Source: Bacteroidales bacterium (GTDB taxonomy: Bacteria; Bacteroidota; Bacteroidia; Bacteroidales; UBA932). Taken from it: 35,918 bases of DNA. The stretch is taken from contig JAGCXV010000069.1 of NCBI GenBank assembly GCA_017961175.1, positions 1 through 35,918 of the forward strand, read 5' to 3'. A model generated the notes under the pieces. The model worked only from the letters and a program-made list of their open reading frames with translations, searched no databases and had not been told where the DNA came from. Every line of letters starts with the position of its first letter. Position 1 is the stretch's first letter. A program made the position numbers and the translations under genes. Shown here one piece after another: positions 9,109 through 34,544 of the stretch.

Positions 9109-9136
9109 TATCTTTACTCCGCTTAATGCAAAAATA
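9109..9136. promoter_or_regulatory. Overlapping divergent promoters (C69 peptidase and LTxxQ-like gene)
   Basis: On the + strand TATCTTTA at 9109-9116 is one base off TAnnTTTG and faces the C69 gene. On the minus strand TATTTTTG (9136-9129) is an exact match facing the small exported gene. The boxes are 12 bases apart, so the two start points would lie close to or across each other and the promoters should compete. Confidence 0.4.
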
Positions 9137-9160
9137 ATGCGAAACAAAGTTATTAAAATT

Positions 9161-16333: not shown

Positions 16334-17583
16334 TATTGAAGCTTGAATACTACCGGGAAGGAGAATCTAACAGGAACAGCTTCACCGTTTTGCTTGCCTG
16401 GCTCCCATTTCGGGGACGAGGAAACAACCCTCAGGACTTCAGCATTCAGGTCTTCGCGCACTCCTTTAACCAGTTCTACATTGCTGACAGAGCCATCGGT
16501 TCCGATGGTGAATTGTACGAGCACGCGGCCCTGAGCCTTGTCTTTTTTGGCTTTCTCCGGATAATTAAGCTGCGAGTACGCCCATTTGACGAACTCCCCG
16601 GCATCTCCGCCGTTGAAAGTAGGCTTGACTTCAATTGCGTCAAACGTAACGGCCTCAGCGACATTTTGTTCAGCCTGAGCTTCGGTTGTTGCGGAAACTT
16701 TCTGTTCTGTAGTTTCAGGAGCCACAGACTTGCTTTCCTTTGGAGAATTGCAGGCGTACATCAATACTGCCAGCACAGGAATCACGGCCAGGTACGACCA
16801 GCGCACCCAGCGGGAAGAAGATTTTTTGAGCATCATAGTAATTCTGTTTTTGAGTTTGGCGTGCTGGAAGCCGCTGGCCAGGGAGAAGCGGTGCTCTCCC
16901 ACGGCTTTCCGCACAAGTAACAGTTGGTATTGTGTTGCATCGATGCCTTTTTTAATGACTCCTTCATCTGCCTCGTACTCGTGCAGGAGGCGCAGCTCTT
17001 CACGGGTAATCCATACCAGCGGATTCCACCAGAAGAGTATCTGGAGAGGAAGGAACAGTATCAGATCCAGTGAATGGCGGCACTTTACGTGCATGCGTTC
17101 GTGGGTAAGGATGGCCGGATTCTCCTGCATATCCTTCCTGCTCATAACCACCGTCCGTCCCCAGCTGAACGACGGCGCTTCCGATTCCAGAAGCACCAGC
17201 CGGCAATCATCGAGAGCCGAAGCGTTGCCGTTCCTTATCAGCCGCCCCATCTTCCAGGATGATACCATATAAATAATCAGCGTAACCAGCGCTCCCGCAA
17301 CATACACGGCCAGCAGTACTTCCCGCCAAGGGACACTTGCGGACACGGTGGTGCTTTCCGCAGCCTCTCCTACACCCACAATCGTCAGGTCCGATACGAT
17401 AACTTCTGCCGTCTCGGTCCTGAGCCTTATAAACGGCAGCAGCAGGCACAGATAAGATCCGGCAAGCAAAAGCACACGGTTTAGTCTGAAGAAAGTGGTG
17501 CGCCTCATCACCAGCAGGTAAAAGGCGTAGAACAGGCCCAGATAGAGCCCCACTCTCGCGATATATAATAAGAATTGTGTCAT
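16333..17583 (-). CDS. M56 (BlaR1/MecR1-like) membrane metalloprotease with TonB C-terminal domain
   Basis: 416 residues. Helices at about 5-24, 36-52 and 88-108 flank a BlaR1-type M56 domain with FSWGRTVVMSRKD and the zinc motif HERMH (161-165), followed by LILFLPLQILFWWNPLVW. Another helix lies near 268-284 (LAVIPVLAVLMYAC). The periplasmic C-terminus, about 330-416, is a TonB_C domain (LNYPEKAKKDKAQGRVLVQ, TDGSVSNVELVKGV, PVRFSFPVVFKL) in place of the penicillin-binding sensor of true BlaR1. It overlaps blaI by four bases (ATGA). By analogy it cleaves the BlaI-type repressor when a signal is sensed, but that signal is unlikely to be a beta-lactam bound at this end. Confidence 0.92.
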   Translation of the reverse strand: MTQFLLYIARVGLYLGLFYAFYLLVMRRTTFFRLNRVLLLAGSYLCLLLPFIRLRTETAEVIVSDLTIVGVGEAAESTTVSASVPWREVLLAVYVAGALVTLIIYMVSSWKMGRLIRNGNASALDDCRLVLLESEAPSFSWGRTVVMSRKDMQENPAILTHERMHVKCRHSLDLILFLPLQILFWWNPLVWITREELRLLHEYEADEGVIKKGIDATQYQLLLVRKAVGEHRFSLASGFQHAKLKNRITMMLKKSSSRWVRWSYLAVIPVLAVLMYACNSPKESKSVAPETTEQKVSATTEAQAEQNVAEAVTFDAIEVKPTFNGGDAGEFVKWAYSQLNYPEKAKKDKAQGRVLVQFTIGTDGSVSNVELVKGVREDLNAEVLRVVSSSPKWEPGKQNGEAVPVRFSFPVVFKLQ

Positions 17584-19224: not shown

Positions 19225-19232
19225 TAAATTTG
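19225..19232 (+). promoter_or_regulatory. Probable -7 promoter box of the nine-gene unit
   Basis: TAAATTTG is an exact TAnnTTTG match, 26 bases before the ATG at 19259. No -33 TTG at normal spacing. It is the only good box ahead of the run of genes up to 31960. Confidence 0.45.
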
Positions 19233-19258: not shown

Positions 19259-20455
19259 ATGACAAACAGATTGACAAAAATTTTATGCGGAGCCGGTATG
19301 ATTCTGGCGGTGGTGGCTCTCTCCCTCCGCCTTGCAGGCTGCAATGACAAAGAAAAAGCCATGGAACAGAGACAGGCTGCTTTTGAAGACTCTCTTCTCA
19401 CGATGATAAGGGAACACAATATCCCGATGATTCAGGTAAAGTACACCGCACCGGGAGACAGCGTTTACTGCCAGGTTGGAGTAACGCCTTGGTCAACGGA
19501 AGAGCCGGTTGCAATGGACTCCACCGGCTTCAGCTACAAGGAGACAGGCAAGGCAGACTATGAAAAGGAAGCTGTCTTCCAGGCCGCATCGCTGAGCAAA
19601 GTGGTATTCGCCTACGTTGTGCTGAAGATGTACGACAAGGGAGAGATTGACATAGACCGCCCTCTTTACGAGTACACCGATATTGACCGCTTTGTAGACA
19701 AGGATATGGCAAAGGAACTTACTGCAAGGCTGATACTTATGCACCGCAGCGGCATAGACGACTGGGCGGCTTCTCCGTCTTCGGATGCCTGGCCAACTGC
19801 CCCTATCAACTTCACCTTCCCTGTAGATTCCATTTTCGGATATTCCGGAGAGGGATATGCCTTCCTGCAGAGAGCCGTGGAGGCAATCAAGGGAAAAGAC
19901 ATCCAGTCCATCGCAAAGGAATATGTGTTCGATCCGCTGGACATGCCGCTTTCTTCCTACGAGTGGATTCCGGAATTCGAGGGCATAACCACAGCATCAG
20001 TAAGGCGTAACGGAGAAAGCCAGGGCGTAAGGCAATTCCCGAGGCAGAACGTTGCCTACACCCTGAGAACCAACGCTATAGATTACACCAAGTTCCTTAA
20101 GGCCATAATGAACGGAACAGGTCTCAGCGCTGAGTCCCATGCCCTGATGATAACCCCTTGCAGCGGACCTGCAACGCAGTTCCCTCCGAAGGTCAGGCCA
20201 ATCGACGAGAAGAAGACGATCTTCTGGGGCCTTGGAATCGGCATAGAGGAGAATCCGCATTACGGAAGGGTTCTCTGGCACTGGGGAGACAACGGAAACA
20301 CAAAGGCTCTGTTCATAATACTTCCGGCACAGAAAAAGACAATCGTATATTTTGCCAACAGCGGAGCGGGACACGAAATCGCCAACAGTGTGCTGAATCT
20401 TTTCCTCGGCGACAATACTCCGTTTGACATTGAAGACTGGATTAATCAGGAATAG
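19259..20455 (+). CDS. Serine beta-lactamase-like (S12 family) lipoprotein hydrolase
   Basis: 398 residues. The lipoprotein signal peptide ends LAGC (Cys28). The fold is that of class C beta-lactamases and DD-peptidases: the nucleophile motif SLSK (Ser111, Lys114), DRPLYEYTDIDRF with LILMHRSGIDDW after it, YSGEGYAFLQRAVE as the YxN-like element, and WHWGDNGNTKALFII as the third motif (HWG instead of KTG). S12 members include D-aminopeptidases, esterases and lactamases, so the substrate is open. It would be anchored in the envelope. It is first in the nine-gene unit, three bases before the acyltransferase, which suggests an esterase or peptidase role connected with that pathway. Confidence 0.88.
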   Translation: MTNRLTKILCGAGMILAVVALSLRLAGCNDKEKAMEQRQAAFEDSLLTMIREHNIPMIQVKYTAPGDSVYCQVGVTPWSTEEPVAMDSTGFSYKETGKADYEKEAVFQAASLSKVVFAYVVLKMYDKGEIDIDRPLYEYTDIDRFVDKDMAKELTARLILMHRSGIDDWAASPSSDAWPTAPINFTFPVDSIFGYSGEGYAFLQRAVEAIKGKDIQSIAKEYVFDPLDMPLSSYEWIPEFEGITTASVRRNGESQGVRQFPRQNVAYTLRTNAIDYTKFLKAIMNGTGLSAESHALMITPCSGPATQFPPKVRPIDEKKTIFWGLGIGIEENPHYGRVLWHWGDNGNTKALFIILPAQKKTIVYFANSGAGHEIANSVLNLFLGDNTPFDIEDWINQE

Positions 20456-20458
20456 CCG

Positions 20459-21823
20459 ATGGAAATGCGCAAAACCTTCAAGGGCGGACTTTACTACATG
20501 GGCTTCAAGGAGTTCATCCGCCTGCTTTTCAATCATTTTCTCTACAGGAAAGTTTACAAGATCGGAGACGAAAAGATCCTTCCGGACGGCAATCCTCAAG
20601 TGATAGCATCCAACCACCAGAATTGCCTGGTGGACGCCATTGCTGTGATGCTGTCTTTCAAGGGGCCGGGAAGAAGGCCTTTCTTCTGGGCCAGGGCGGA
20701 TATCTTTGCCGTAAGCAAGGTTCTGGAAAAATACCTGAGGTTCCTCGGCCTTATGCCAGCATTCAGGATGGAGCACGAGGGAATGGAAGATGTGGGAAAG
20801 AACAGCGCATCCTTTGAAGAAAGCTACCATCTGCTCAATCACGGGCAGAGCGTGATGATATTCCCGGAAGCAGGCCATCAGGACAAGAGGTTCCTTGGTC
20901 ACTTCACCTCCGGCTACACCACGATGGCGTTCAAGGCCGCGGAGCAGACAGGATTCGAAAAGGAAATTTTCATCCTCCCTGTGGCCAACCACTATTCCGA
21001 CTACTTCGGGATGAGGCGGGAGATGTGCGTGATGTTTGCCGATCCGGTATCCCTGAAGCCATACTACGAGCTTTACAAGGAAGCCCCGAGGACGGCGATG
21101 AGAAAGGTCAACCAGATTGTCAGGGAAGCCATCTCGGCGATGATGCTGGATATCCAGGACCTCGACAACTACCCGGCAATAGACTTCCTCAGGACCAATT
21201 ACGGAAAATCCTTTGCTTTCATCCGCAAGGAACCATACAAGACTCTTCCGGAAAAGCTCAAGGCAGAAAAGGAGTTAGTGGCGGCTCTGGGAGCGCTGGA
21301 AGACGGTACAAGGGAATCCGTTTACAGCCAGGCCGACAATCTGCGCAAAGAGCTTGAGGAAAGCAAGCTGCAGTACAAATCGCTGAGCAAGAAGGTAAAC
21401 TGGACATCAACGATATTGAAGATCGTGGGAATGGTGATACTGTTCCCTCTGTGGATATTCTCGCTGTGGCCGAATTTCTTCCTTTACCACATTCCAATGC
21501 GTCTGACAAAAAGGGTTGGAGACAAGATGCTGACATCGTCCTTCCTTCTTGGTGTTAACGCAGTGTTGGGCATAGCGTTTTTTGCCATTGTCTCATTTGT
21601 GCTCGTATGGTGCTTCCTCACCATCTATATGGCTGTGCTCTATGTTCTTATGATGCCGGCCCTGGCACTCTTCTGCTGGTATTATACGGAATGGTGGGCA
21701 TCCATAAAGGAGGATTTGAGGCTTCTGGCGTTCTATGGAAAATCAAAAATTGCTAAATTGCGTTCTTTAAGGAAAGAGAGCGAAAAATTGGAGGACCGTC
21801 TGTGGTCTATGTTCAAGATATGA
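20459..21823 (+). CDS. PlsC-type acyltransferase with C-terminal membrane helices
   Basis: 454 residues. The N-terminal half is a glycerophosphate-acyltransferase fold: ASNHQNCLVDA (His53, Asp59), FFWARADIFAVSKVLEKYL, and SVMIFPEAGHQDKRFLGHFT (FPEAG 135-139). The catalytic box is HX5D instead of the usual HX4D, as I recall also for the fungal Gat/Sct glycerol-3-phosphate and dihydroxyacetone-phosphate enzymes. The C-terminal half has a helical linker and strong membrane segments (VGMVILFPLWIFSLWPNFFL and a long pair at about 362-410). It would transfer an acyl group to a lipid or polar acceptor at the inner membrane. Its stop overlaps the ketoacyl synthase start by 4 bases, implying joint action with the synthase and carrier protein. 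Confidence 0.88.
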   Translation: MEMRKTFKGGLYYMGFKEFIRLLFNHFLYRKVYKIGDEKILPDGNPQVIASNHQNCLVDAIAVMLSFKGPGRRPFFWARADIFAVSKVLEKYLRFLGLMPAFRMEHEGMEDVGKNSASFEESYHLLNHGQSVMIFPEAGHQDKRFLGHFTSGYTTMAFKAAEQTGFEKEIFILPVANHYSDYFGMRREMCVMFADPVSLKPYYELYKEAPRTAMRKVNQIVREAISAMMLDIQDLDNYPAIDFLRTNYGKSFAFIRKEPYKTLPEKLKAEKELVAALGALEDGTRESVYSQADNLRKELEESKLQYKSLSKKVNWTSTILKIVGMVILFPLWIFSLWPNFFLYHIPMRLTKRVGDKMLTSSFLLGVNAVLGIAFFAIVSFVLVWCFLTIYMAVLYVLMMPALALFCWYYTEWWASIKEDLRLLAFYGKSKIAKLRSLRKESEKLEDRLWSMFKI

Positions 21824-23040
21824 AAAGAAGAGTTGTCATAACAGGAATGGGAATTTACTCCTGCCTCGGAAAGACTTTGGACGAGGTCAGGGATTCTCTT
21901 TACAGTGGAAAAAGCGGCATCGTGTTCGATCCCGTAAGGAAGGAAATGGGCTTTTTGTCCGCACTGACCGGGCATCTGGAAGTCCCTAATCTCAAGGGAA
22001 TCCTCAGCCGTAACCAGAGGGTTTATATGCCGGAACAGGCCATCTATGCATACTGCGCCACGGCGGATGCGCTAAGGGACGCCCGCATAGACCAGGACTG
22101 GCTGGACAGCCACGAAGTGGGCCTTCTCTACGGAAACGACTCCAGCGCCGAGCCTGTAGTGGCCAGCGTAGACGCGATGAGGCTGAAGGGAGACACCTCT
22201 CTGATCGGCAGCGGTGGAATCTTCAAGAGCATGAACTCTACCGTTACGATGAACCTTTCCTGCATATTCAAGCTCAAGGGAATTAACCTTACCGTTTCCG
22301 GAGCATGCGCCAGCGGAAGCCATTCAATCGGCTGGGGCACGATGCTCATCCAGAACGGACTTCAGGATATGGTCATCTGCGGCGGAGCCCAGGAAGTAAA
22401 TCCTTACTCCGTATGCAGTTTCGACGGTATCGGCGCATTCTCCAAGAGGGAGAGCGAGCCTGAAAAGGCATCCCGCCCGTTCGACCGCCACAGAGACGGT
22501 CTTGTTCCGTCCGGCGGAGCTGCCACGGTCATCCTGGAAGACTATGAGAGCGCAGTTAAAAGAGGCGCCCCTATCATCGCCGAGGTACTCGGATACGGCT
22601 TCTCCTCCAATGGAGACCACATCTCAGTTCCTAACGTTGACGGCCCGTCCAGATCTCTGAAGATGGCGCTGGCACAGTCTGGACTCACTCCGGCAGAAAT
22701 CGGCTACATAAACGCCCACGCCACAAGCACTATGGTGGGAGACCAGAACGAGGCAAAGGCAATATACCAGGTATTCGGAGACAATATGCCGCCTGTAACC
22801 AGCACCAAGAGCCAGACCGGCCACGAAATGTGGATGGCGGGCGCCAGCGAGGTTATCTACTCCATCCTGATGATGAAAAACGGCTTCATCGGGGCAAACG
22901 TCAACTTCGAGGAACCGGACGAGGATTCCGCCAAGCTGAACATTCCGGCAAAGAGGATAGAAAGGACCTTCGACACCTTCCTTTCCAACTCATTCGGATT
23001 CGGCGGAACCAACTCAACCCTTGTGGTCAAGAACCTTTGA
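21820..23040 (+). CDS. Beta-ketoacyl-ACP synthase (KAS I/II type)
   Basis: 406 residues from the ATG at 21820 (ATGA overlap with the acyltransferase stop). A GTG six codons upstream is rejected. It condenses malonyl-ACP with an acyl chain. The Cys-His-His triad is complete: VSGACASGSHS (Cys163), YINAHATSTMVGDQNEA (His300) and STKSQTGHEMWMAGASE (His335), with the FGFGGTNSTLVV C-terminal glycine loop. The sequence looks divergent from a housekeeping FabF: the N-terminal GIYSCLGKTLDEVRDSL is fitting but GHEMWMAGA differs from the usual GHLLGAAGA. Placed between an acyltransferase and a dedicated ACP, it probably serves a specialised lipid or polyene rather than bulk fatty acids. Confidence 0.93.
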   Translation: MKRRVVITGMGIYSCLGKTLDEVRDSLYSGKSGIVFDPVRKEMGFLSALTGHLEVPNLKGILSRNQRVYMPEQAIYAYCATADALRDARIDQDWLDSHEVGLLYGNDSSAEPVVASVDAMRLKGDTSLIGSGGIFKSMNSTVTMNLSCIFKLKGINLTVSGACASGSHSIGWGTMLIQNGLQDMVICGGAQEVNPYSVCSFDGIGAFSKRESEPEKASRPFDRHRDGLVPSGGAATVILEDYESAVKRGAPIIAEVLGYGFSSNGDHISVPNVDGPSRSLKMALAQSGLTPAEIGYINAHATSTMVGDQNEAKAIYQVFGDNMPPVTSTKSQTGHEMWMAGASEVIYSILMMKNGFIGANVNFEEPDEDSAKLNIPAKRIERTFDTFLSNSFGFGGTNSTLVVKNL

Positions 23041-23061
23041 TAACAAACTAAAACAAACAAT

Positions 23062-23310
23062 ATGACAAAAGAAGAACTGATTGCCAAGACAATTGATATT
23101 CTGGCAGAAGAATTCGAGGTAGAGAAGGAGGAAATCACTCCTGAAGCAGACATCAAGAAAACACTTGACCTTGACAGTCTTTCTCTGGTAGACCTTGTAG
23201 CCCTTATAGAAGAAACCTTCGACATCAAGATCAAGGGTACAGACCTGATGAAGACTACAAATTTCAGCCAACTCTACGACTTCCTCTTCGAGAGAATCAG
23301 CGAAAAATAA
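23062..23310 (+). CDS. Acyl carrier protein (pathway-specific)
   Basis: 82 residues, acidic, four-helix pattern. The phosphopantetheine site is DLDSLSLVDL with Ser39. Helix II/III residues VALIEETFDIKIKGTDL fit the family. It carries acyl intermediates as thioesters. It follows the ketoacyl synthase by 21 bases and its TAA directly abuts the ATG of the MMPL gene, so it is very likely the dedicated carrier of this cluster and not the housekeeping AcpP, which normally sits next to fabF in a fab locus. Confidence 0.95.
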   Translation: MTKEELIAKTIDILAEEFEVEKEEITPEADIKKTLDLDSLSLVDLVALIEETFDIKIKGTDLMKTTNFSQLYDFLFERISEK

Positions 23311-25824
23311 ATGACCCGTCTGGCCCTGGCCGTCTACCGCTTTTTCAGGAAGAGGCGCGCGGTATTCTATATAGTCCTCCTGGGCAGTTTCATCCTGCTG
23401 GCTTTCCTGGCCGGCCGGATGTACTATGAGGAGGATATAACCAAGCTCCTCCCGGCAACGGAAGAAAACAGCGGAGTCAGATATGTCTTTGACCGTCTGA
23501 GAGTCAAGGACAAGATCTTTGTGGAACTAAGGATAACGGACACCACGATGAGCCCTCAGGATATGGTGGACACTCTGGTTTCCGCCTCCGACAGGCTCTG
23601 CGATTCCATAAAGGCTCACGACAGTGACGGCTACATGCAGGACATCCTTAACAGGATAGACCCTTCCCTTCTGGAAGACGGAGCCTTCCTGATCCTGGAC
23701 AACGCCCCTTGTTTCCTTGACAGCACCTGCTATCCGGCTCTGGACAATCTCATGAACGCCAGCAGCCTGGATTCCCTTATGCAGGAGAATGCGGATATCC
23801 TCGCCGAGGATGCATCCGGAATGTGGTACGACATCATCTGCAAAGACCCTCTGGCCTTCCGCAGCCTGGCGATGAGGAACCTTGCTTCCGCCGGAGGAGA
23901 CCTTTCCGACGGTTCTGCCCACAAGGAAAGCGGAAAGCTCACCCTCACGGATTTCCACCTGATGAGTTCAGACAGCACGGTGGCACTGGCTTATGTCTCC
24001 CCTGCCTTCCGGGCAATGGACAGCAAGTCCGGCTCCCATCTGATAAGCCTGATCGAAGCAGAGGCTGAGGAACTCTACAAGGTATGCCCGCAGGTAGAAG
24101 TTCTCATCTGCGGCAAATCCACCAAGAGTGTCTACACGGCAAGGCGCATCAAGAAAGACCTGGTGCTGACTGTCAGCATCGCCCTGTTCATTATCATACT
24201 GATTATCGGATACTGCTTCCGCACAAAGGACACTCTGCTGTATATGCTGCTGCCTTTGATCTGGGGAGTGGTAGCCGCAATCGCCGCCGTTTACCTGATC
24301 CAGGGGCAGATGTCTTTCATCGCCCTGGGTATCGGATGTATAGTGGTTGGAGTGGCCCTGAGCTACTGCATCCACATCATAACCCATCACAAGTATATAG
24401 CCTCAGTCGAGCAGGTCATCCGCGACCAGGCAAAACCTGTAGCACTGGGATGCATCACCACCGTGGGCTCACTTCTGGGACTGATTTTCACCAAGTCTTC
24501 CCTCCTCAGCGATTTCGGCCTTATGGCCTCTCTGGTGATGGTCGGAACAACTCTGGCCGCAATATTCTTCCTGCCGCAGTTCTTCAGGAATTCCACCGGA
24601 AAGAAAAACGAAAAGGCTTTCGAGGCTATCGAGAAAATCACAACCTATCCATACCACAAGAGCGGATGGGTGATAGTTCTGGTTGTCATACTGTTTATCC
24701 TCAGCGTTATCTTTACAAGGGGAAAGGCAAACTTCGACACGGACCTTTTCCACCTTGCCTACAGCGATCCTAAACTCATAACCGCAGAGCAGGTTTACGA
24801 CGCCAAGCTGGAGAATGGCCTCCAGACAAAGTACATTGCCGTGCGCTCCAAAGACCTGGACAGCGCCCTGGCCCTGAACCAGGTAATGGCAGAAGAATGC
24901 CAGGCCCTTCAGGACAAGGGAACCATATCATCCTTCAATACGGTCTCCAACCTTCTTATCCCTTCAACGGAACAGGCGGAGAGGATCAGCCTCTGGAACG
25001 CCTACTTTACCCCGGAAAAGAAAAGCCTGGTAAAGAAAATGACCGCGGCTGCAGCTGAGCGGAACGGCTTTGAAGCGGATATGTTCGAGCCATTCTACGA
25101 GGCTCTGGACAAAGAATATTCTCCTGTGGACGTGTTCTCCAGCGGAACCGTTCCAAACGAGATAATGGGCAACTTCATAGAGAAGAACGAAGACGGAACC
25201 TACCTGGTGCTCACCACCATCAAGGCCAAGGACGCCGACAGCCTGTGGAGAGCTTCCGAAATCCTCGCCGGTGGCGGCCAGGAAAAGAACAAGGACCTTT
25301 CCGGCGGAGTCGTGGTGATAGACCCTCTGTTCTACACCACCAATATGCTGGAGATCATGGAACACGACTTCAACACCGTGCTGCTGATTTCCTCGCTGTT
25401 CGTTCTGGTTATCCTGCTTCTGGCTTTCAGGAACATTGTCCACGCCCTGATCGCGTTCCTGCCTATGTTCATGAGCTGGTTTATGGTGCTTGGCTTCATG
25501 AGGCTGTTCGGCATAGAGTTCAACCTGATCAATATGGTAATCTCCACCTTCATCTTCGGAATGGGAGTGGACTACAGCATCTTCGTGATGGACGGGCTGA
25601 TCAAGGGCAAGGAAAGGGAAGACCTTCTCAAATATCACCGCAGCGCCATATTCTTCTCCGCGGTGATGCTGATCCTGGCTGTAAGCAGCTTGCTGTTTGC
25701 CGTTCATCCGGCCATTTCCTCCATCGGTCTTTCAACCCTGGCGGGCATGATTTCCACCATCGTGATAACCTTCACCCTGCAGCCTTACCTGTTCTACAAA
25801 TGGGAGGCGTACAGACATAAATGA
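23311..25824 (+). CDS. MMPL/RND family lipid exporter
   Basis: 837 residues with the two-fold RND layout: helix 1 at about 16-36, a periplasmic domain, five helices at about 285-430, a further helix at about 451-470, a second periplasmic domain, and a final five helices at about 690-830. Signature segments include GIGCIVVGVALSYCIHIITHH in the first half and FIFGMGVDYSIFVMDGL in the second, the paired helix-4 Asp/Tyr proton-relay region of MMPL proteins. Such transporters move lipids, glycolipids or polyenes out of the inner membrane using the proton gradient. Direct abutment to the ACP and a 4-base overlap with the FAD oxidoreductase place it as the export step of this cluster. Confidence 0.92.
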   Translation: MTRLALAVYRFFRKRRAVFYIVLLGSFILLAFLAGRMYYEEDITKLLPATEENSGVRYVFDRLRVKDKIFVELRITDTTMSPQDMVDTLVSASDRLCDSIKAHDSDGYMQDILNRIDPSLLEDGAFLILDNAPCFLDSTCYPALDNLMNASSLDSLMQENADILAEDASGMWYDIICKDPLAFRSLAMRNLASAGGDLSDGSAHKESGKLTLTDFHLMSSDSTVALAYVSPAFRAMDSKSGSHLISLIEAEAEELYKVCPQVEVLICGKSTKSVYTARRIKKDLVLTVSIALFIIILIIGYCFRTKDTLLYMLLPLIWGVVAAIAAVYLIQGQMSFIALGIGCIVVGVALSYCIHIITHHKYIASVEQVIRDQAKPVALGCITTVGSLLGLIFTKSSLLSDFGLMASLVMVGTTLAAIFFLPQFFRNSTGKKNEKAFEAIEKITTYPYHKSGWVIVLVVILFILSVIFTRGKANFDTDLFHLAYSDPKLITAEQVYDAKLENGLQTKYIAVRSKDLDSALALNQVMAEECQALQDKGTISSFNTVSNLLIPSTEQAERISLWNAYFTPEKKSLVKKMTAAAAERNGFEADMFEPFYEALDKEYSPVDVFSSGTVPNEIMGNFIEKNEDGTYLVLTTIKAKDADSLWRASEILAGGGQEKNKDLSGGVVVIDPLFYTTNMLEIMEHDFNTVLLISSLFVLVILLLAFRNIVHALIAFLPMFMSWFMVLGFMRLFGIEFNLINMVISTFIFGMGVDYSIFVMDGLIKGKEREDLLKYHRSAIFFSAVMLILAVSSLLFAVHPAISSIGLSTLAGMISTIVITFTLQPYLFYKWEAYRHK

Positions 25825-27314
25825 AATACGACGTCATCATATTAGGCAGCGGGCTGGGAGGTCTGGAATGCGCCTTCATACTCGCCAAGTGCGGCATGAA
25901 CGTGTGCGTGGTGGAAAAGAACGCCGCCCTGGGAGGATGTCTGCAGAGTTTCCGCAGGGGTAAGGAGGAGTTCGACACCGGATTCCACTATGTGGGAGCA
26001 CTTGGAAAGGGCCAGATTCTGGAAAGGATATTCAGCCACCTGGGCCTGATGGACCTTCCGTGGCATCAGCTGGATACAGAAGGCTTTGACCAGGTCTATT
26101 TCAAGGACAAGGACATTCTGCTGGAAAACGGATACGGCCGGTTTGCAAGGTCTCTCTCTGCGATATTTCCGGAAAGCCAGAAAGAACTGGAAGACTATTC
26201 CGCCTTCCTGGAGAAAGTCGGAAACGGCATCGCGGACCCTATCCTGAAAGGGTCCCACGGCTTCAGCTCCATCAACTCGCTGTTTGAAAAAAGCGCCTAC
26301 GGACATCTTTGCCAAAGCATCAGCGATCCGCTCCTCAGAAACATTCTGAGCGGAACATCCCTGAAACTGGAACTCAGGCGCGGAACCCTTCCGCTCTACA
26401 CCTTTGCCCAGATCAACAGCTCCTACATACAGAGCGCCTGGAGGCTTAAGGGAAGAGGCTCTTTGATCGCCGATACGTTAGCGGAGGGAATAAGGAAAAT
26501 GGGCGGAACCGTCCTGACAAACGCCACCGTAACCTCCCTGGAGGAAAAGGACGGGAATGTTTGCCAGGCTCAAATCCTGCACAAGGGCAGCCAGGAAACC
26601 CTGACTGCAAACCTTTTTGTCTCCGACCTCAGTCCCCAGCTTACACTGGAGCTCCTGAAAGACAGCCCTAACCTCAGGCCTGTCTTCCGCCGCAGGATCA
26701 ACCGCCTGGAGCAGACCTGCGGATTCTTTACAGTTAACCTAAAGCTCCAGGAGGGCAAGATCCCTTACCTTAACCGCAACATCTACTGCTACACCCCGGA
26801 CCTGGAATCCGTCTGGGACATTGCTGAAAGCCAGACCGGGAAAACGGTAAAAGGTGTTCTTGTCAGCCAGCAGGTTCCTGAAAACGGAGGAGCAGCAACC
26901 CAGATGGATATTCTTACCCCTATGGACTATTCCGAGGTGGAGAGGTGGAAAGACACGCTGCCTAACCGCCGTGGAGAAGAATACCTGGCCTTCAAGGCAA
27001 AAAAGGCAGAAGAGTGCATCCTCCTTGCCCAGGAATGCTTCCCAGGCCTGAAAGATTCCATAGAAACCATATACACAAGTTCTCCGCTTACCTACATGAA
27101 CTACACCGGTGCTGTAAAAGGCACCGCCTACGGCATCCGGAAAGACTGCAACAACCTCACACAGACGCTATTAACGCCAAAGACACCGTTTGCCAACCTA
27201 TACTTTACAGGCCAGAACCTGAACCTCCACGGAATACTTGGAGTTTCCCTCACATCCCTGCTTACCTGCTCGGAAATTTTGGGAAAGGAACCAGTGGTAC
27301 CGTTTTTGGAGTAA
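25821..27314 (+). CDS. FAD-dependent CrtI-like oxidoreductase (phytoene desaturase/retinol saturase family)
   Basis: 497 residues. The N-terminus has the dinucleotide fold DVIILGSGLGGLECAFILAK (GxGxxG at about 9-14), followed by VVEKNAALGGCLQSFRR and FDTGFHYVGALG, typical of CrtI and retinol saturase relatives. The C-terminus has the FAD-closing segment PFANLYFTGQNLNLHGILGV. Members desaturate, saturate or isomerise polyene or isoprenoid chains. No isoprenoid gene is present, so a carrier- or lipid-bound acyl/polyene substrate made by the neighbouring synthase is the reasonable inference. A 4-base ATGA overlap with the MMPL gene supports translational coupling. Confidence 0.92.
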   Translation: MKYDVIILGSGLGGLECAFILAKCGMNVCVVEKNAALGGCLQSFRRGKEEFDTGFHYVGALGKGQILERIFSHLGLMDLPWHQLDTEGFDQVYFKDKDILLENGYGRFARSLSAIFPESQKELEDYSAFLEKVGNGIADPILKGSHGFSSINSLFEKSAYGHLCQSISDPLLRNILSGTSLKLELRRGTLPLYTFAQINSSYIQSAWRLKGRGSLIADTLAEGIRKMGGTVLTNATVTSLEEKDGNVCQAQILHKGSQETLTANLFVSDLSPQLTLELLKDSPNLRPVFRRRINRLEQTCGFFTVNLKLQEGKIPYLNRNIYCYTPDLESVWDIAESQTGKTVKGVLVSQQVPENGGAATQMDILTPMDYSEVERWKDTLPNRRGEEYLAFKAKKAEECILLAQECFPGLKDSIETIYTSSPLTYMNYTGAVKGTAYGIRKDCNNLTQTLLTPKTPFANLYFTGQNLNLHGILGVSLTSLLTCSEILGKEPVVPFLE

Positions 27315-27326
27315 ATTTGTACCGTT

Positions 27327-27968
27327 ATGAAAAAGTTATTCATCGCCATACTGTCCTTGTGCGTTCTGACTAGCGCCGCTGGCTTGTCGCAGAGCAAGGA
27401 AAAAGTTCTGGCAGACATCCAGAAAAAGAACGAAAGCTACAAGACCATTACCTCCAGCTGCACCCAGGTCAAGACAATGAAGGGAATGAAGAAAAGTGTG
27501 GAGAGCAGCGGCAAGATGTACTTCGTAAGGGCTACCGAGAAACTTTCCATGCAGCTTACTCACGACAGGGTCAAGCACAAGGACAAGGAAAACCAGCTGA
27601 TCATAAACGGAGACAAGGTCACGATGATAAGCGGCGGAACCCGCAACGTCTTCAACACCAAGACGGACCACAATATGAACATCCTGAAGGGAACCTTGAT
27701 CAGCTGCATCAAGGGGCAAATAGAAAAGGCTGCCCAGCTCAACAAGTCAGACATCAAGATGACTGTCAACGACAAGTACTATGTCTTTGAGATGAACATT
27801 GCCAAGCACGCAAAGGGAAGGTGGAACCATCTGACCGCATCCTACAGCAAGAAAGACCTTACCCTGTGCATATTCACCCTCACGGAGAAAAACGGGAACA
27901 CCACCACCTGGAACACCCTGGAAAAGGAGTTCAACGGAGTGATCCTGGACGATCAGTTCAACTATTAA
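27327..27968 (+). CDS. LolA-like periplasmic lipid/lipoprotein carrier
   Basis: 213 residues with a signal peptide ending near GLSQ. The mature part has the LolA pattern: VLADIQKKNESYKTITSSCT, repeated beta-strand pairs (GKMYFVRATEKLSMQLTH, ENQLIINGDKVTMISGGTR), and ITVNDKYYVF-like strands near the C-terminus. LolA/LolB-fold proteins hold acyl chains in a hydrophobic half-barrel and carry lipoproteins or lipids across the periplasm. As the next gene after an MMPL exporter and an oxidoreductase, it likely ferries this pathway's product to the outer membrane. A TAAATTTG box (27312-27319) overlaps the previous stop, but the 12-base gap favours cotranscription. Confidence 0.84.
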   Translation: MKKLFIAILSLCVLTSAAGLSQSKEKVLADIQKKNESYKTITSSCTQVKTMKGMKKSVESSGKMYFVRATEKLSMQLTHDRVKHKDKENQLIINGDKVTMISGGTRNVFNTKTDHNMNILKGTLISCIKGQIEKAAQLNKSDIKMTVNDKYYVFEMNIAKHAKGRWNHLTASYSKKDLTLCIFTLTEKNGNTTTWNTLEKEFNGVILDDQFNY

Positions 27969-27980
27969 AGCTTTTACGGA

Positions 27981-30587
27981 ATGGGCAAACGGGGAATACT
28001 GAAACTTCTGCCGGCGTTGCTGCTGGCCGCCCTGCTTTTGCCATCATTCGCCGATGCCCAGAGCACAAGGGTAAAGGGCCGTGTCACCGATGCAGACACG
28101 GGAGAAGGCCTTCCATTTGCCAACGTTTATTTCAAGGGTACCACCATCGGCGTTTCCACAGACCTTGACGGCTATTACACCCTTGAAACCAGAGACCAGA
28201 CCGTAGATCTGCTCAGGTTCGAGATGCTGAGCTACATCCCGGTGGAAAAGCAGGTCAAGAAAGGAGCGTTCAACCAGCTGGACATTGCCCTGAAGATTGA
28301 GGAAAACCTCCTCAACCAGATTGTGGTAAAGCCGGACTACCGCTACATCCGCTGGATTCTTTCCAACATAGAAAGGGCCAAGAAAATCAACAATCCTGAA
28401 GAGAGAGACCGCTACGAGTGCCGCCTCTACACCAAGATGGAGCTCGACCTTGTCAACGCGGATACCCAGATAAAGAACAAGCTGCTGAGGAAAAACTTCG
28501 GGTTCGTGTTCGACTATATGGACACTTCCGTTATCAGCGGAAAGCCATATCTGCCGATTATGATATCGGAGAACAACTCCAGGTTCTACAGGCAGAAAGA
28601 CCCTTCCCAGACGAAGGAAATCATCGAAGCCACCCGCATATCTGGAGTAAAGGACGAGGCCACCTTCGCCCAGTTTACCGGCAACATGCACATCCGCACC
28701 AACTTCTACGACGACTTCATCAACCTGTTCAACGTCCAGATCCCGTCTCCGGTGAGCGGCCCTAACGTTTACTACGACTATTTCCTCATAGACAGCCTCA
28801 ACATAGACGGAAGGAAGACCTATCATATACGCTTCCACCCTTCTAAGCTGGTTTCCTCCCCGACTTTCGACGGGGAAATGAGGATTGACGCAAAGGACTG
28901 GGCTATCAGGGAGATCCACGTTAAGCTCAAGAAAGGAAGCAACGTAAACTGGATCAGGGACCTCGTCCTGGATTCCGAATACCAGCTTGTCGGAGGAAGA
29001 GGCTCCTACCAGGGAAAGGACTCCCTGTGGTTCTTCAAGCAGGACAAGATGTACGCGGACTTTTCGGTGACGATGAGAGATTCCTCCAAGCTGATGTCTT
29101 TCCTCGGAAGGAGGCAGTGCGACTATCTCGACCCGAGGTTCGACCGGCAAATGCCGGACAGCGTGGCCAAGCTCATGAGCAACGTGGTGACCGGCAAGAA
29201 TCCTCTGATCGACGACGAGGCCTACTGGGAGCAGAACCGCCCTTACGCCCTCAGCGAGAAGGAAAGCAACATCTACAAGATGGTGGATTCCATCAAGAAC
29301 GTTCCGCTGTACCATAACATCTATACCATCGTAAACACCTTTGTAAACGGGCATTACGACTTCAAGTACTTTGGAGTGGGTCCTTACTTCAAGCTATTCA
29401 GCTTCAACAACATAGAAGGTGCAAGGTTCCAGTTCGGCGGAAGGACCACGGAAGATTTCAGCAAGAAGATCAGGCTTTCCGGCCACATAGCATATGGAAC
29501 CAAGGACAAGGACTTCAAGGGAAAGATAATGGCCGAATACATGTTCAGCAATCTGCCTACCCGTAAAATCGTTGTCAGTGCAAGCAGGGACCTTGTCCAG
29601 ATGGGAAGAGGTACGGATGCCCTTACGGAAGGCAACATCATGTCCTCCCTGCTCAACAAAGGCAACAGCGAGAGGATGAGTCCTGTCAACGATTATTCCA
29701 TTTCCTATGTCCACGAGTGGAACGAGGGATTCAACAACAGCATCGGCCTGGAAAGCCGTAGGGTTTATTCCAACCGCTATGTGCCTATGTTCACTCCCGA
29801 CAGCGTCCACGTAACCAGCGTTTCTTCCAACCAGCTGCATTATACCGCCCGCTTCTCCTGGGACGAGACGGTTACCCGCGGAACTTTTGACAAGATATAT
29901 GTCCTTACACACTATCCCGTTGTTACCATAGACCTTGTGGGAGCGGCCAAGGGAATGAGTCACAATGACTTCGGATTTTTCCGCGCGGAAGCTACCGTGG
30001 ACTATACCCTGCCTCTGCCGCCGTTCGGAACATCCAAGTTCCATCTTACCGGCGGAAAGATCGTGGGCAAGGTTCCATATCCTTTCCTCAAACTCCACGA
30101 AGGAAACGGTACCTATTTCCTGGACAAGAGCGCGTTCGCCTGCATGGACTTCTACGAGTTTGCCTCAGACACCTGGACCACACTCTTCTACGAACATAAC
30201 TTCAGAGGCTTCTTCCTGGGCAAGATTCCGCTTATGAAGAGACTCCAGTGGAGAGAAGTCTTCACCCTCAAAGCCGGCTACGGCACCCTGTCAAAGGTTA
30301 ATAACGGTATTACCGACGGAAAGATCGGAAATCCTTCCAGCACCATCATGGGAACCGGCCCTGGAGCAAAATACGAGGGCATGGAAGCCCGCCTGCTCTT
30401 CCCTGAAGGCATGAGCTCTCTGAGAAAACCTTATGTGGAAATGGGTGTTGGCGTGACCAATATCTTCAGGGTATTCCGCGTAGATGTCTTCTGGAGAATG
30501 ACTCACCGCTTCAAGATAGAAGATGGCGTAAAGGTCAAGAAAAACCACCGTGCCGCCATCAACTTCGGCTTCGAATGGGCCTTCTAA
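27981..30587 (+). CDS. DUF5686/carboxypeptidase-regulatory-like outer-membrane protein
   Basis: 868 residues. A signal peptide ends at SFADAQ (near residue 27). Residues about 31-115 are a CarboxypepD_reg-like beta-sandwich (VKGRVTDADTGEGLPFANVY, DLDGYYTLET). The remainder matches DUF5686, a large Bacteroidota family, with alternating beta-strands that suggest an outer-membrane barrel and a terminal aromatic strand (INFGFEWAF). There is no TonB plug, so it is not a standard TonB-dependent receptor. Twelve bases after the LolA-like gene, it may be the outer-membrane end point of the pathway. Exact role unknown. Confidence 0.87.
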   Translation: MGKRGILKLLPALLLAALLLPSFADAQSTRVKGRVTDADTGEGLPFANVYFKGTTIGVSTDLDGYYTLETRDQTVDLLRFEMLSYIPVEKQVKKGAFNQLDIALKIEENLLNQIVVKPDYRYIRWILSNIERAKKINNPEERDRYECRLYTKMELDLVNADTQIKNKLLRKNFGFVFDYMDTSVISGKPYLPIMISENNSRFYRQKDPSQTKEIIEATRISGVKDEATFAQFTGNMHIRTNFYDDFINLFNVQIPSPVSGPNVYYDYFLIDSLNIDGRKTYHIRFHPSKLVSSPTFDGEMRIDAKDWAIREIHVKLKKGSNVNWIRDLVLDSEYQLVGGRGSYQGKDSLWFFKQDKMYADFSVTMRDSSKLMSFLGRRQCDYLDPRFDRQMPDSVAKLMSNVVTGKNPLIDDEAYWEQNRPYALSEKESNIYKMVDSIKNVPLYHNIYTIVNTFVNGHYDFKYFGVGPYFKLFSFNNIEGARFQFGGRTTEDFSKKIRLSGHIAYGTKDKDFKGKIMAEYMFSNLPTRKIVVSASRDLVQMGRGTDALTEGNIMSSLLNKGNSERMSPVNDYSISYVHEWNEGFNNSIGLESRRVYSNRYVPMFTPDSVHVTSVSSNQLHYTARFSWDETVTRGTFDKIYVLTHYPVVTIDLVGAAKGMSHNDFGFFRAEATVDYTLPLPPFGTSKFHLTGGKIVGKVPYPFLKLHEGNGTYFLDKSAFACMDFYEFASDTWTTLFYEHNFRGFFLGKIPLMKRLQWREVFTLKAGYGTLSKVNNGITDGKIGNPSSTIMGTGPGAKYEGMEARLLFPEGMSSLRKPYVEMGVGVTNIFRVFRVDVFWRMTHRFKIEDGVKVKKNHRAAINFGFEWAF

Positions 30588-30613
30588 CAAGACTAAACTC
30601 AAAAACTTCAAAT

Positions 30614-31960
30614 ATGAAACAATACATAGAGAAGAACAAAGACCGTTTCTTCGAAGAACTTTTCTCAATTCTCAGAATCCCTTCCATCAGCGCCAAGAAA
30701 GAGCACAAGGCAGATATGCTAAAGTGCGCCAAAAGACTCGTTGAACTGCTTAAAAAGGCAGGTGCAGACAAGGCAGACGTTTATCCTACAGCCGGCAACC
30801 CTGTTGTCTTCGGCCAGAAAATGATAGACCCTAAGGCCAAGACCGTTATGGTTTACGGCCATTATGACGTGCAGCCTGCCGAGCCTCTGGAGAAGTGGAA
30901 CTCCAATCCTTTCGAGCCAGAGATCCACGACGGGGCTATCTGGGGAAGAGGTGCCAATGACGACAAGGGCCAGCTTTTCATGCATATCAAGGCTTTTGAA
31001 TATCTGGTAAAGACCAAGCAGCTCAAGCATAACGTCAAGTTCATCTTCGAGGGCGAGGAGGAAATCGGAAGCCCTTCCCTTCCTGCCTGGGTAAAGAAGA
31101 ACAAGAAGATGCTCGCAAGCGACGTTATCCTTGTCTCCGACACCACCATGATCAGCGAGAAAGTCCCTTCCATCAACTGCGGTATGAGGGGCCTTGCCTA
31201 TCTGGAAGTTACCGTCACCGGCCCTAACAAGGACCTTCATTCCGGCCATTACGGCGGAGCCGTTGCCAACCCTATCAATGTCCTCTGCGATATGATTTCA
31301 TCGCTGATAGACAAAAACGGCAAGGTTAAGGTAAAGGGCTTCTACGATGATGTCGTTAACCTCAGCAAGGCAGACCGCGCCCAGCTTGCCAGGGCTCCTT
31401 TCAACCTCAACGAGTACAAGAAATTCCTCGGCATAAAGGAAGTCAAGGGAGAAAAGGGCTACACCACCCTCGAGAGAACCGGCATCCGTCCTTGCCTGGA
31501 CGTCTGCGGAATCTGGGGCGGCTACACGGGAGAAGGCGCCAAGACCGTCCTTCCATCCACAGCCCACGCCAAGATATCGATGAGGCTTGTTCCTAACCAG
31601 GACAGTGCCAAGATAACCAAGCTCTTCAAGCAGCATTTCCTCTCTATCGCCCCTAAGTACGTCAAGGTTAAGGTAGAGGAGAAAGAAGGCGGAAACGGCT
31701 TCCTGATCCCAATCACCTCCACTGCCTTCCAGGCCGCCTCAAAGGCCATGAAGGAAGTTCTGGGCATAGAGCCTGTTCCAAGCCGTGGCGGCGGAAGCAT
31801 CGCTGTCCTTGCAGATATGCAGAAGATCCTGGGCACAGACCCTCTGCTGATGGGATTCGGCCTTGAGAGAGACACCATCCACTCCCCTAACGAGAGCTAC
31901 CTGCTCAAGCAGTTCTTTGGCGGAATGGAATCCATCGCCCTCTTCTACAAATACTACTAA
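30614..31960 (+). CDS. M20 family metallodipeptidase
   Basis: 448 residues from the ATG at 30614; 13 codons of upstream frame overlap the previous gene and are dropped. It lacks a signal peptide and should act in the cytosol. Zinc-site motifs are complete: MVYGHYDVQPAEP, GAIWGRGANDDKGQLFMH, FEGEEEIGSPSL, and the late GFGLERDTIHSPNESY. The dimerisation lid starts near NCGMRGLAYLEVTV. The closest class is the PepV/CNDP-like dipeptidases that split Xaa-Xaa dipeptides. It is 26 bases after the DUF5686 gene and ends the run before a strong terminator; its role is probably general peptide turnover, and its link to the lipid genes may be only positional. Confidence 0.94.
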   Translation: MKQYIEKNKDRFFEELFSILRIPSISAKKEHKADMLKCAKRLVELLKKAGADKADVYPTAGNPVVFGQKMIDPKAKTVMVYGHYDVQPAEPLEKWNSNPFEPEIHDGAIWGRGANDDKGQLFMHIKAFEYLVKTKQLKHNVKFIFEGEEEIGSPSLPAWVKKNKKMLASDVILVSDTTMISEKVPSINCGMRGLAYLEVTVTGPNKDLHSGHYGGAVANPINVLCDMISSLIDKNGKVKVKGFYDDVVNLSKADRAQLARAPFNLNEYKKFLGIKEVKGEKGYTTLERTGIRPCLDVCGIWGGYTGEGAKTVLPSTAHAKISMRLVPNQDSAKITKLFKQHFLSIAPKYVKVKVEEKEGGNGFLIPITSTAFQAASKAMKEVLGIEPVPSRGGGSIAVLADMQKILGTDPLLMGFGLERDTIHSPNESYLLKQFFGGMESIALFYKYY

Positions 31961-31986: not shown

Positions 31987-32016
31987 AAAAGCACTTGCAG
32001 AAACGCAAGTGCTTTT
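31987..32016 (+). terminator. Intrinsic terminator after the M20 gene
   Basis: Twelve perfect pairs (AAAAGCACTTGC 31987-31998 with GCAAGTGCTTTT 32005-32016) around AGAAAC, followed by AATTTATT. Symmetric ends let it serve the convergent lipoprotein gene too. Confidence 0.85.
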
Positions 32017-32036: not shown

Positions 32037-33734
32037 TTAGAATGCCAGGAAAGCCCTGACTGAACGGCCTTCCATTGATATAGAAGAATCTTTCCTGTCT
32101 TTTACATGATGGGCAAGAAGCACACCTTTGACACCATCTCCATCTCTAAATCCTGTACACAAAACCCTTTCCGCAGACATCTGGGTACTTGACCAATAAT
32201 AATTCCAGTTATAATTCTTACCTCCTACATTCTGATGGCTCCAACCAGGCAAGGTGCAAATATTGATAGGCATGGTAAATCCAGATGTGCTAACATAACT
32301 GTAGAATTTGTCATAAATGTCTCCAGAATAATAGAAATCACCATCTGTAGGATAATAGTTGTAATCATTGACATCCGAGTGTGTACTGGTCTTCAAGACA
32401 GGAAGAAAACTGGTACATTCGCCAAGTCCCAGGAAAGATGCTATCCACTGTGAAATCGTTGGCATGAACCACTTAGAGGAGTGTGTGGTGTCCACGGCTG
32501 GAGTATAACTGTTTATACAAGCGGCTGCCAGATATACATTAGGGCTGGCCTTCATAAATTCCGTCTTCCCTATTCCGTTGTAACTAAGAAACATCAATTC
32601 ATCACGACGGCTAGGAGAAAGATTATTTTTAAACCAATCCTGCTCAAAAGCAGAATTATTGATTCGTATTTTGTTTTCTGTTGTCCAACGAACGCCTCCG
32701 TCTGCAGGACTGCAATCCTTAAAAGCCATTACCAGGGCGTGACCATAACCGTTAGATTCCTCAGTAATGCCGTTTGCAAAGCTAAAGATATCTTCACCAG
32801 ATGTCATGAAAGAAGGATGCTTTGAGTTTTCTCCTTCATTCACATAAACAACCAGACCCAGTGCAACGCGAGTGCTTGAAACTGTCTGCTGTTTGTAGTT
32901 TCCCCAGGTTCCATCTGAATAGAAGACATCGCCGACTTTAATCTTGTCGGTTACGGTGCTAAGCTTTCCGGTACCCAAATTTGTGCTTGCGCTACCGAAC
33001 TTTCTTGTCCACACTACATTATTGCCAGAATCCTTGATTGTAATCAATGGGTTGCTGAGAACTGTCTCGCCAGGGAAAGCTATAGCAAAAAATGCATTTC
33101 CTTTTGAAATGCTAACCGTATTGTTTGCGCTATAGCTATTATCGTCAGAGAGTGTGATCGTATAATTTCCGTTTAAACCGCTTGCGATAATCTTAAAGCT
33201 TACAAATGTGCTGCCCTGTGAAAGATTAAAACTCTTTTCGCTAAAGGTACTCTCTGCAGTAAGTGAACTGTATTTCTGTACAGCCTCGCCCAGAGAAGAA
33301 ACGACAGCAGTAGAATAATTACCACCTGAGTTCAACACATCTGAAGTGCTTATAAGCGTGGCATTCAAGACCAAATCATCTGCAGGATCGCCTTCTCCTT
33401 CGTATTCAAGATTTCCGGAAAAAACAGCAGACTGCGTACCTGCGCCGGAAACGAGGGTAAGATTTCCTGAAATCTCTTCCCCTGTGATTCGCAAAACGTC
33501 TCCTGTCTCGAAAACCTGACTCTTTTCTCCTGAAATGGTGGCCTTCGTCGAAGAACCTCCATTGTGCACCTTTACAGAATAAGGTATCACTTTAGCGGTT
33601 GATACCTCAGGCTTTACTTCCTCAACAACAGGATCCTCTTTTACAACTGGTTGATCTGCCTTGCTGCAGGAAAAAGCGGCTGCGACAACAATCATTGTTG
33701 TAAACAACCTGAAAATATTATAGAGCTTCTTCAT
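32037..33734 (-). CDS. Fimbrillin-like surface lipoprotein
   Basis: 565 residues, lipoprotein signal peptide ending AFSC (Cys23). A Pro/Glu/Val-rich linker (VVKEDPVVEEVKPEV) precedes beta-rich domains. FETGDVLRITGEEISGNL and STFSEKSFNLSQGSTFVSFK resemble the N-terminal part of Mfa/FimB-type fimbrillins. After VGDVFYSDGTWGNYKQQ and VALGLVVYV the C-terminal domain resembles the paralogous-domain/DUF1566-like modules (KWFMPTISQWIASFLGL, NYYWSSTQMSA, VRAFLAF). It is probably surface exposed, as an adhesin or pilus-related protein. It follows a 44-residue peptide gene by 16 bases, a pairing I recall for fimbrillin-like genes in Bacteroidales. Base composition is more A/T-rich than the neighbours, which hints at accessory status. 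Confidence 0.82.
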   Translation of the reverse strand: MKKLYNIFRLFTTMIVVAAAFSCSKADQPVVKEDPVVEEVKPEVSTAKVIPYSVKVHNGGSSTKATISGEKSQVFETGDVLRITGEEISGNLTLVSGAGTQSAVFSGNLEYEGEGDPADDLVLNATLISTSDVLNSGGNYSTAVVSSLGEAVQKYSSLTAESTFSEKSFNLSQGSTFVSFKIIASGLNGNYTITLSDDNSYSANNTVSISKGNAFFAIAFPGETVLSNPLITIKDSGNNVVWTRKFGSASTNLGTGKLSTVTDKIKVGDVFYSDGTWGNYKQQTVSSTRVALGLVVYVNEGENSKHPSFMTSGEDIFSFANGITEESNGYGHALVMAFKDCSPADGGVRWTTENKIRINNSAFEQDWFKNNLSPSRRDELMFLSYNGIGKTEFMKASPNVYLAAACINSYTPAVDTTHSSKWFMPTISQWIASFLGLGECTSFLPVLKTSTHSDVNDYNYYPTDGDFYYSGDIYDKFYSYVSTSGFTMPINICTLPGWSHQNVGGKNYNWNYYWSSTQMSAERVLCTGFRDGDGVKGVLLAHHVKDRKDSSISMEGRSVRAFLAF

Positions 33735-34540: not shown

Positions 34541-34544
34541 GTCT

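Follow-up and report, generated by a model that had tools for sequence, protein, structure and literature searches.

Among described pathways, the closest to the locus presented here are the flexirubin (flx/dar) and aryl polyene (APE) clusters. In the published section on the flx/dar cluster FlxA is a tyrosine ammonia-lyase (TAL), FlxB or FlxV is the proposed reductase, and the five proposed beta-ketoacyl-acyl carrier protein synthases (KS) include FlxC (PMC3992019). The LolA2 and LolB2 proteins of Flavobacterium johnsoniae are described as sitting in the flexirubin locus (PMC11885536). Here we analyse a compact operon on a 35,918-nucleotide contig of a Bacteroidales bacterium (GCA_017961175.1, contig JAGCXV010000069.1), referred to as the window. 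It is contig C35 of genome G000, a draft that resembles a metagenome-assembled genome (MAG) and is 81% complete, with 1.92 Mb on 82 contigs; other genomes, contigs and loci are given below by their G, C and L numbers. We read it as a reduced operon of the flexirubin/aryl-polyene family which would need enzymes supplied in trans and would export a polyene-type lipid, a reading to which we give a probability of roughly 0.57, with product and enzyme sharing both inferred from sequence.

Seven open reading frames (ORFs) lie head to tail on the + strand at 20459–30587, encoding a membrane acyltransferase (AT), the KS, an acyl carrier protein (ACP), an MMPL/RND exporter, a CrtI-like oxidoreductase, a LolA-like carrier and a DUF5686 protein, with a 4-base overlap, 21 bases, 0 bases, a 4-base overlap, 12 bases and 12 bases between successive genes (Table 1). 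The initial annotation had described this layout, and its genes, strand, gaps of 0–21 bases and two overlaps stand in the ORF scan and Pfam reading, but it missed the gene directly upstream, encoding a lipoprotein with a beta-lactamase fold (bla). The bla gene is 3 bases upstream and its position is kept in five same-genus genomes (G119, G108, G074, G097 and G003, identity 57–88%), hence, on gene order, the unit in the window subclade is one of eight genes, from the bla lipoprotein through DUF5686. The KS frame was called from an ATG, and a longer frame from a GTG at 21802 was also called. As first noted, no ketoreductase (KR), dehydratase (DH), thioesterase (TE) or ammonia-lyase was found in the operon in the ORF and Pfam reading of the window genes.

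In a tree of 46 KS rows, with E. coli FabB, E. coli FabF and the genome's own FabF as the only outside references, the window KS fell within a 24-row clade (support 100/100) whose sister is E. coli FabB, apart from the rows of its own FabF, of a second synthase (KS2) and of chain-length factors (CLF). Four KS matches were detected in G000, including the FabF at C30:10453, which grouped with E. coli FabF. As its clade is separate and the genome's FabF lies elsewhere, the window KS is, on this phylogeny, a flexirubin-type enzyme and not a housekeeping one. A duplication of housekeeping FabF/AcpP was set aside, as the tree and the separate FabF speak against it; nor does the KS group with FabF as a sole copy, an outcome which the initial annotation had set against its own proposal, the genome holding further KS copies. 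The predicted Cys-His-His triad is intact, Cys163, His300 and His335 being invariant in all 16 alignment rows, the window included. The motif around the catalytic histidine reads TGHE[MC]WMAGAS in 24 of 24 clade rows and TGH[SL]LGAAG in E. coli FabB and FabF. This clade signature, TGHE[MC]WM around His335, has tryptophan at His+3, where both E. coli enzymes have glycine.

The clade also includes the KS of G354, G358, G401 and G386, whose neighbours are an ammonia-lyase gene, KR, ACP and an LpxL-like gene. These neighbourhoods look like the published flexirubin clusters (PMC3992019) and, together with the tree, bear out the original suggestion of a reduced aryl-polyene/flexirubin cluster. From this gene order we infer that the window KS may be the counterpart of FlxC. 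No ammonia-lyase was found in range of the clade KS in G542, and the clade KS of G165 has few genes of the cluster around it. Clade matches at E ≤1e-100 occurred in 68 of 149 genomes sampled in the window's family and in 33 of 395 sampled across the phylum.

The window form of the operon, with no KR, DH or TE within it, was present in six of the twelve same-genus genomes drawn (G000, G119, G108, G074, G097 and G003), which cluster together in the KS tree with 100/100 support. Its gene order recurs in the last five of these and in the named locus L084, and is therefore not a chance arrangement; conservation beyond this strain had been the second point on which the initial annotation was to be judged. 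The compact locus of G086 and G140 keeps two dehydratases (DH1 and DH2) and KR, that of G027 is more distant (KS 67%), G045 and G061 have a sole clade KS (58–68%) on the contig bearing KS2, and G130 has no clade KS. KR, DH and TE are thus missing from the operon in a six-genome subclade of the genus, and relatives have them.

Such losses could also mean that a flexirubin-type cluster is in decay and makes no product: several genes are absent, locus L087 has lost more, and in G003 (L053, a single-contig genome) the MMPL gene (5938–8662) and the CrtI-like gene (8679–10200) are each in two frames, through assembly error or decay. We consider this very unlikely, however, as the frames are full-length in G000, G119, G108, G074 and G097, the KS is 89–93% identical among those five with invariant active-site residues, and the genes keep their order, flanked by bla and DUF5686.

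The neighbourhood of the KS was also compared across named records, namely the best 80 of at least 583 confirmed KS loci (at least 592 pattern matches). The named and unnamed sets overlap and are not independent, L082, L083, L089, L105, L108 and L118 being contigs of G119, G097, G140, G013, G041 and G065, respectively. Among the matches listed, the closest named record is the Bacteroidales MAG Tb.RUG.340 (L082, KS 93%), and most are Bacteroidales MAGs whose titles often name ruminant, horse, deer or other animal-gut samples. ORF calls at the loci compared were crude, with genes missed or split, and presence counts were redone with hidden Markov models (HMMs) built partly from the same loci; the models for DUF5686, bla and M20 were built on 4–6 close sequences, so distant copies would escape them.

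A CrtI-like gene was found by HMM search on the same strand and in range at 48 of the 80 named loci. The other 32 comprise 24 in which the sequence downstream of the KS is shorter than 6 kb and eight with at least 6 kb but without a separate CrtI frame, in one of which (L105) CrtI lies inside a 1336-aa frame. The 48 CrtI loci carried ACP (n = 42), DH1-type hotdog (n = 35), DH2-type hotdog (n = 32), MMPL (n = 30), AT (n = 29), 4HBT thioesterase (n = 23), KR and LolA (at least 18 each), bla (n = 3), DUF5686 (n = 3) and TAL (n = 1) genes, and where at least 9 kb lay downstream (28/48), KR was present in 14 and LolA in 16. Judged by this gene content, relatives usually have AT-KS-ACP-DH1-TE-DH2-MMPL-CrtI together with KR and LolA. 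DH1, DH2 and/or TE lay nearby on the same strand at 38 of the 48, and all three were missing from ten (L082, L083, L084, L092, L116, L122, L130, L137, L148 and L152); the spread of gene content suggests that reduced forms probably arose more than once. One of the ten, L116 (NZ_QVMI01000038), is from Bacteroides sp. 51, a title without MAG that may point to an isolate, and its compact cluster is AT-KS-ACP-MMPL-CrtI-LolA-KR, with no dehydratase or thioesterase found by HMM. Over all 80 loci, bla was in place in L082–L086 and L088 and DUF5686 in L082–L084. No published description, name or chemistry of the compact cluster turned up in the literature under our search terms, and one in other terms may exist.

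These counts bear on the possibility of a stand-alone acyl-lipid pathway, in which the KS and ACP would extend a fatty-acid chain, FabG and FabZ would perform the other steps and no polyene would be exported. The absence of a dedicated KR, DH and TE, the sister position of E. coli FabB, the FabG-like and FabZ-like matches in the genome and the ten CrtI loci also lacking DH1, DH2 and TE are all in its favour, but an own dehydratase and/or thioesterase at 38 of the 48 CrtI loci speaks against it, as does the CrtI-like gene itself, although the eight loci with sufficient downstream sequence and no separate CrtI frame soften this last point. We regard this explanation as unlikely. The earlier proposal of a reduced pathway that borrows fatty-acid enzymes stands in part: the pathway is reduced, but fatty acid synthesis need not supply the absent steps, as many relatives have KR, DH and TE in the operon and G000 has KR, DH1 and a KS3-type gene elsewhere. 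FabG and FabZ may be used in the operon's pathway.

A KR of 62–66% identity was detected as a single copy in a second locus in all six window-form genomes. In G000 this locus 2 (C77, ~8.8–22.1 kb) holds two PlsC-type acyltransferases (one MMPL-fused), an esterase-like protein, a glycosyltransferase, LolA, a CLF-like protein, KS2, ACP, an LpxL-like protein, KR, a nucleotidyltransferase and a kinase. The KS plus CLF pair of aryl polyene clusters is absent from the operon, which has one KS; KS2 and the CLF-like protein lie in locus 2. The acyltransferase, MMPL/RND exporter and, weakly, LolA-like carrier of such clusters are present in the operon. The KR and LpxL genes of G000 locus 2 are 4 bases apart, at the place where G354, G358, G401 and G386 hold the clade KS and ACP between those two genes, and this junction pattern fits reciprocal loss and use in trans. 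In G074, G108, G097 and G003 both DH1 and DH2 lie near KR. Both are in a third locus (locus 3) in G119, as is the DH1 of G000. DH2 was not found in the 81%-complete G000, where there was a FabZ-like match only. A 129-aa ORF in G000 locus 3, tried as a second dehydratase, was rejected as it matches a 125-aa protein of G119 and not the G119 DH2. On C30 of G000 (~59.4–62.6 kb, L068:5401–8645) lie an AMP-ligase, an ACP and a 568-aa KS3-type KS with an M13 peptidase alongside, this KS and the third KS of aryl-polyene-type loci being 34–45% identical across 474–610 aligned positions.

The locus-2 KR was also considered as a compact-operon KR that had moved, and this was rejected, as it falls in its own clade (100/99) apart from the main compact KR clade (98/97, 18 rows). 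In this tree the flexirubin-neighbourhood rows were trimmed to the last 250 residues, the compact rows of G007, L116 and G123 lay outside the main compact clade, and the FabG of G000, on a long branch, was left unused. By its tree position the locus-2 KR looks like the aryl-polyene locus's own gene.

Co-occurrence of the loci was followed in the 149 family genomes, many of them incomplete, using cut-offs of our own choosing (compact KS, at least 72% identity or G027 contig C150; KS2, at least 41%). KS2 matches at E ≤1e-60 occurred in 77 of the 149, some being FabF-like at 33–38% identity. Compact-type KS were present in 29 genomes: 15 had KS2 elsewhere and no other clade KS, four had both in one locus, six had a further clade KS, and four had neither KS2 nor another clade KS. 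All six window-form genomes are within the 15, each with a single clade KS, in the compact operon. Non-compact clade KS were within 20 kb of KS2 in 31 of 45 cases.

Sharing could go as far as the operon supplying the starter KS and ACP to locus 2, giving one distributed pathway with one product, in which each locus is without what another supplies. The pair missing from locus 2 of G000, KS and ACP, is exactly the one found between KR and LpxL in flexirubin-type clusters, the window-form genomes have one clade KS each, the same-genus G140 has both sets in one locus, with TAL, and ApeR is reported, in the consulted part of the source, as necessary for initiation in vitro in the Xenorhabdus APE system (PMC8253772). 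Yet the separate MMPL, LolA and acyltransferase of each locus point to two exported lipids, six genomes have a compact-type KS together with another clade KS, and the same source describes an E. coli apeR deletion in which the APE lipid was still made (PMC8253772), the window KS being likened to ApeR by description only. A single distributed pathway is a tentative possibility, on the improbable side. It is doubtful whether reciprocal loss has dispersed the pathway across at least four loci, with a new type of non-aryl polyene lipid as the product that would be made without a TAL. In that case the compact operon would have lost KR, dehydratases and thioesterase, the aryl-polyene locus would have lost its KS-ACP starter pair, and the KS3-type gene with its AMP-ligase and DH1 would lie on other loci.

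Several observations weigh against our preferred reading of a reduced operon served in trans and exporting a polyene-type lipid. The KS tree has just three outside reference rows, and the draft is fragmented and incomplete, as given above. Another clade KS is held by six of the 29 compact-KS genomes, hence the pathways can be separate. The other nine of the 15 genomes have a different form, in some cases with KR or TE retained in the operon (G041, G123), hence a single clade KS is not tied to operon reduction. Because the locus-2 KR has its own clade, its ancestry gives no proof of sharing. The C30 KS is nearer G542 (45%) than the same-genus locus-2 copies (34–39%) and so need not be a moved copy. 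L087 (KS 85–86%), on a 7-kb contig, has MMPL followed by M20, with CrtI, LolA and DUF5686 absent. As for the genes at the operon's edges, DUF5686 has four genomic copies in G495 and three in G499, G130 has one without a clade KS, that of G027 is on another contig than the compact locus, and bla homologues also occur off-cluster in the genus. Finally, PF00221 ammonia-lyase matches were found in nine of the twelve same-genus genomes (none in G027, G061 and G130), as a single high-scoring copy in G000 (623.8 bits), G119, G108, G074, G097 and G086, and with a second, TAL-like copy (513–541 bits) in G003, G140 and G045. We read these lone copies, that of G000 from its score, as putative HutH and, as DH2 was not found in G000 either, it is doubtful that the product is strictly an aryl polyene.

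In the pathway we propose, the ACP would hold an acyl or aryl-acyl chain, which the flexirubin-type KS, judging by its clade and intact active-site residues, would condense with malonyl units. Beta-keto reduction and dehydration would take place in trans, through the locus-2 KR and the third-locus DH1 and/or FabG/FabZ, and the CrtI-like flavoenzyme, by analogy with its family, may desaturate, isomerise or saturate the chain. At the inner membrane the PlsC-type enzyme would then couple this chain to a lipid anchor, the MMPL protein, LolA-like carrier and DUF5686 protein would carry the lipid to the outer membrane, and the beta-lactamase-fold lipoprotein may trim or transfer an ester.

The operon copy of DUF5686 is the only match in G000, and DUF5686 genes lie a few kb from a clade KS in G091 and G113 (38–40% identity) and, at 25%, in G495 and G499, in support of a role; none was found in G140, G086, G045 or G061, and the term did not turn up in the literature searched. 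No bla gene is present at the compact loci of G086, G140 and G027, and homologues occur elsewhere in these three genomes and in G045, G061 and G130. An old bla-DUF5686-M20 block into which the core was inserted was considered and rejected, as the DUF5686 of G130 and G027 adjoins no M20 or bla gene, and their bla lies on a different contig. From these positions, bla and DUF5686 both seem to have joined the core. The bla lipoprotein is a possible envelope esterase or acyltransferase.

Table 1. Features of the operon and its flanks in the window.
Feature	Position	Strand	Evidence and remarks
Candidate Bacteroidetes -7 promoter element, TAAATTTG	19225..19232	+	End 26 bases ahead of the gene at 19259; weak
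Lipoprotein, serine beta-lactamase/esterase fold (bla)	19259..20455	+	PF00144, 100.7 bits; SLSK motif; lipobox LAGC
Membrane acyltransferase, PlsC/LPLAT type (AT)	20459..21823	+	PF01553, 51.8 bits; TIGR00530 under cut-off
Beta-ketoacyl-ACP synthase (KS), flexirubin-type clade	21820..23040	+	Pfam KS N and C halves; tree 100/100
Acyl carrier protein (ACP), dedicated	23062..23310	+	PF00550 (PP-binding), 47.7 bits; serine of DSL motif
MMPL/RND lipid exporter (predicted)	23311..25824	+	PF03176, 55.5 bits; closest named model HpnN, TIGR03480, 119.5 bits, under cut-off
CrtI/CrtD-like FAD oxidoreductase	25821..27314	+	FAD/NAD-binding amine-oxidase-like Pfam domains; nearest to CrtD, TIGR02733, 130 bits, far under cut-off
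LolA-like periplasmic carrier	27327..27968	+	Nearest to flexirubin LolA2; matches below cut-off
Outer-membrane DUF5686 protein, N-terminal CarbopepD_reg_2 domain	27981..30587	+	PF18939, 191.9 bits
M20 peptidase, left outside the pathway	30611..31960	+	PF01546; not next to the operon in G003
Terminator-like hairpin 3' of the M20 gene	31987..32016	+	Pattern scan; weak, 17 such sites in the region against 15.7 expected

Two of the assignments in Table 1 were followed further. In protein alignment the top solved relative of the CrtI-like protein is the gamma-carotene desaturase 4rep (56.2 bits). The LolA-like assignment is weak, with 19.3 bits to Pfam LolA against a cut-off of 23.6 and 72.9 bits to NCBIfam NF053544 (LolA2_flexi) against 125. 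The pattern TAnnTTTG, which we take to be the Bacteroidetes -7 consensus, has eight matches on the + strand of the window, including the one listed, and the two-box pattern TTTG-N17-23-TAnnTTTG had no match in the pattern scan of the window. Downstream, the M20 peptidase gene probably shares the operon transcript. Beyond it lie long ORFs at 32037–33734 (-) and 34494–35738 (+) with no Pfam match at E ≤0.001, and upstream of the operon an M56 peptidase of BlaR1 type with a TonB C-terminal domain is encoded at 16333–17583 (-). Elsewhere in the genome, contig C77 also carries (~46.7–54.4 kb, L222) an envelope-lipid cluster with MMPL, a BtrH_N/DUF4872 protein, a KAS III-like protein, a LolA-like protein and a DH1-type hotdog protein, which adjoins peptide-chain release factor and UvrA-like genes and is largely kept in G119.

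If a polyene or related lipid is made, gut Bacteroidales would have an envelope component that has gone unrecognised; the clade KS is widespread, and the compact operon is present in many Bacteroidales with animal-gut samples in their record titles. One subclade without KR, DH and TE, beside same-genus relatives that keep them, offers a natural test of enzyme sharing between polyene loci, and interest moves from the borrowing of fatty-acid enzymes to a polyene-type pathway possibly spread over several loci in one subclade.

Compared with described systems, the ladderane type II fatty acid synthesis clusters of Kuenenia and Desulfotalea, as outlined in the consulted part of PMC2649909, have FabB/F-type KS paralogues, ACP and phytoene-desaturase-like enzymes and are similar to the window by description, but their radical SAM enzyme is absent from the window operon. 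The APE cluster of E. coli CFT073, in the portion of PMC8253772 consulted, shares with the window, again by description, a KS, ACP, acyltransferase, LolA-like protein and RND/MMPL exporter; the window operon is without the second KS/CLF, KR, DH, thioesterase and acyl-ACP synthetase and has in addition the CrtI-like and DUF5686 genes. The flexirubin clusters of Chitinophaga pinensis and F. johnsoniae, whose known product is an outer-membrane pigment, also have, in the published part consulted, an acyltransferase, LolA and exporter (PMC3992019). The window operon differs from them in having no ammonia-lyase, ligase, KR, DH, TE or second KS and in adding DUF5686 and the beta-lactamase-fold lipoprotein; the likeness comes through the clade KS that lies beside ammonia-lyase, KR and ACP in G354 and G358, flx proteins themselves being matched by description only. 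The compact AT-KS-ACP-DH1-TE-DH2-MMPL-CrtI clusters of Bacteroidales, with KR and LolA, differ from the window form in having DH1, TE, DH2 and KR, and the window form in turn has bla and DUF5686 at its edges; their KS are 72–93% identical to that of the window, with which they share the order of AT, ACP, MMPL, CrtI and LolA.

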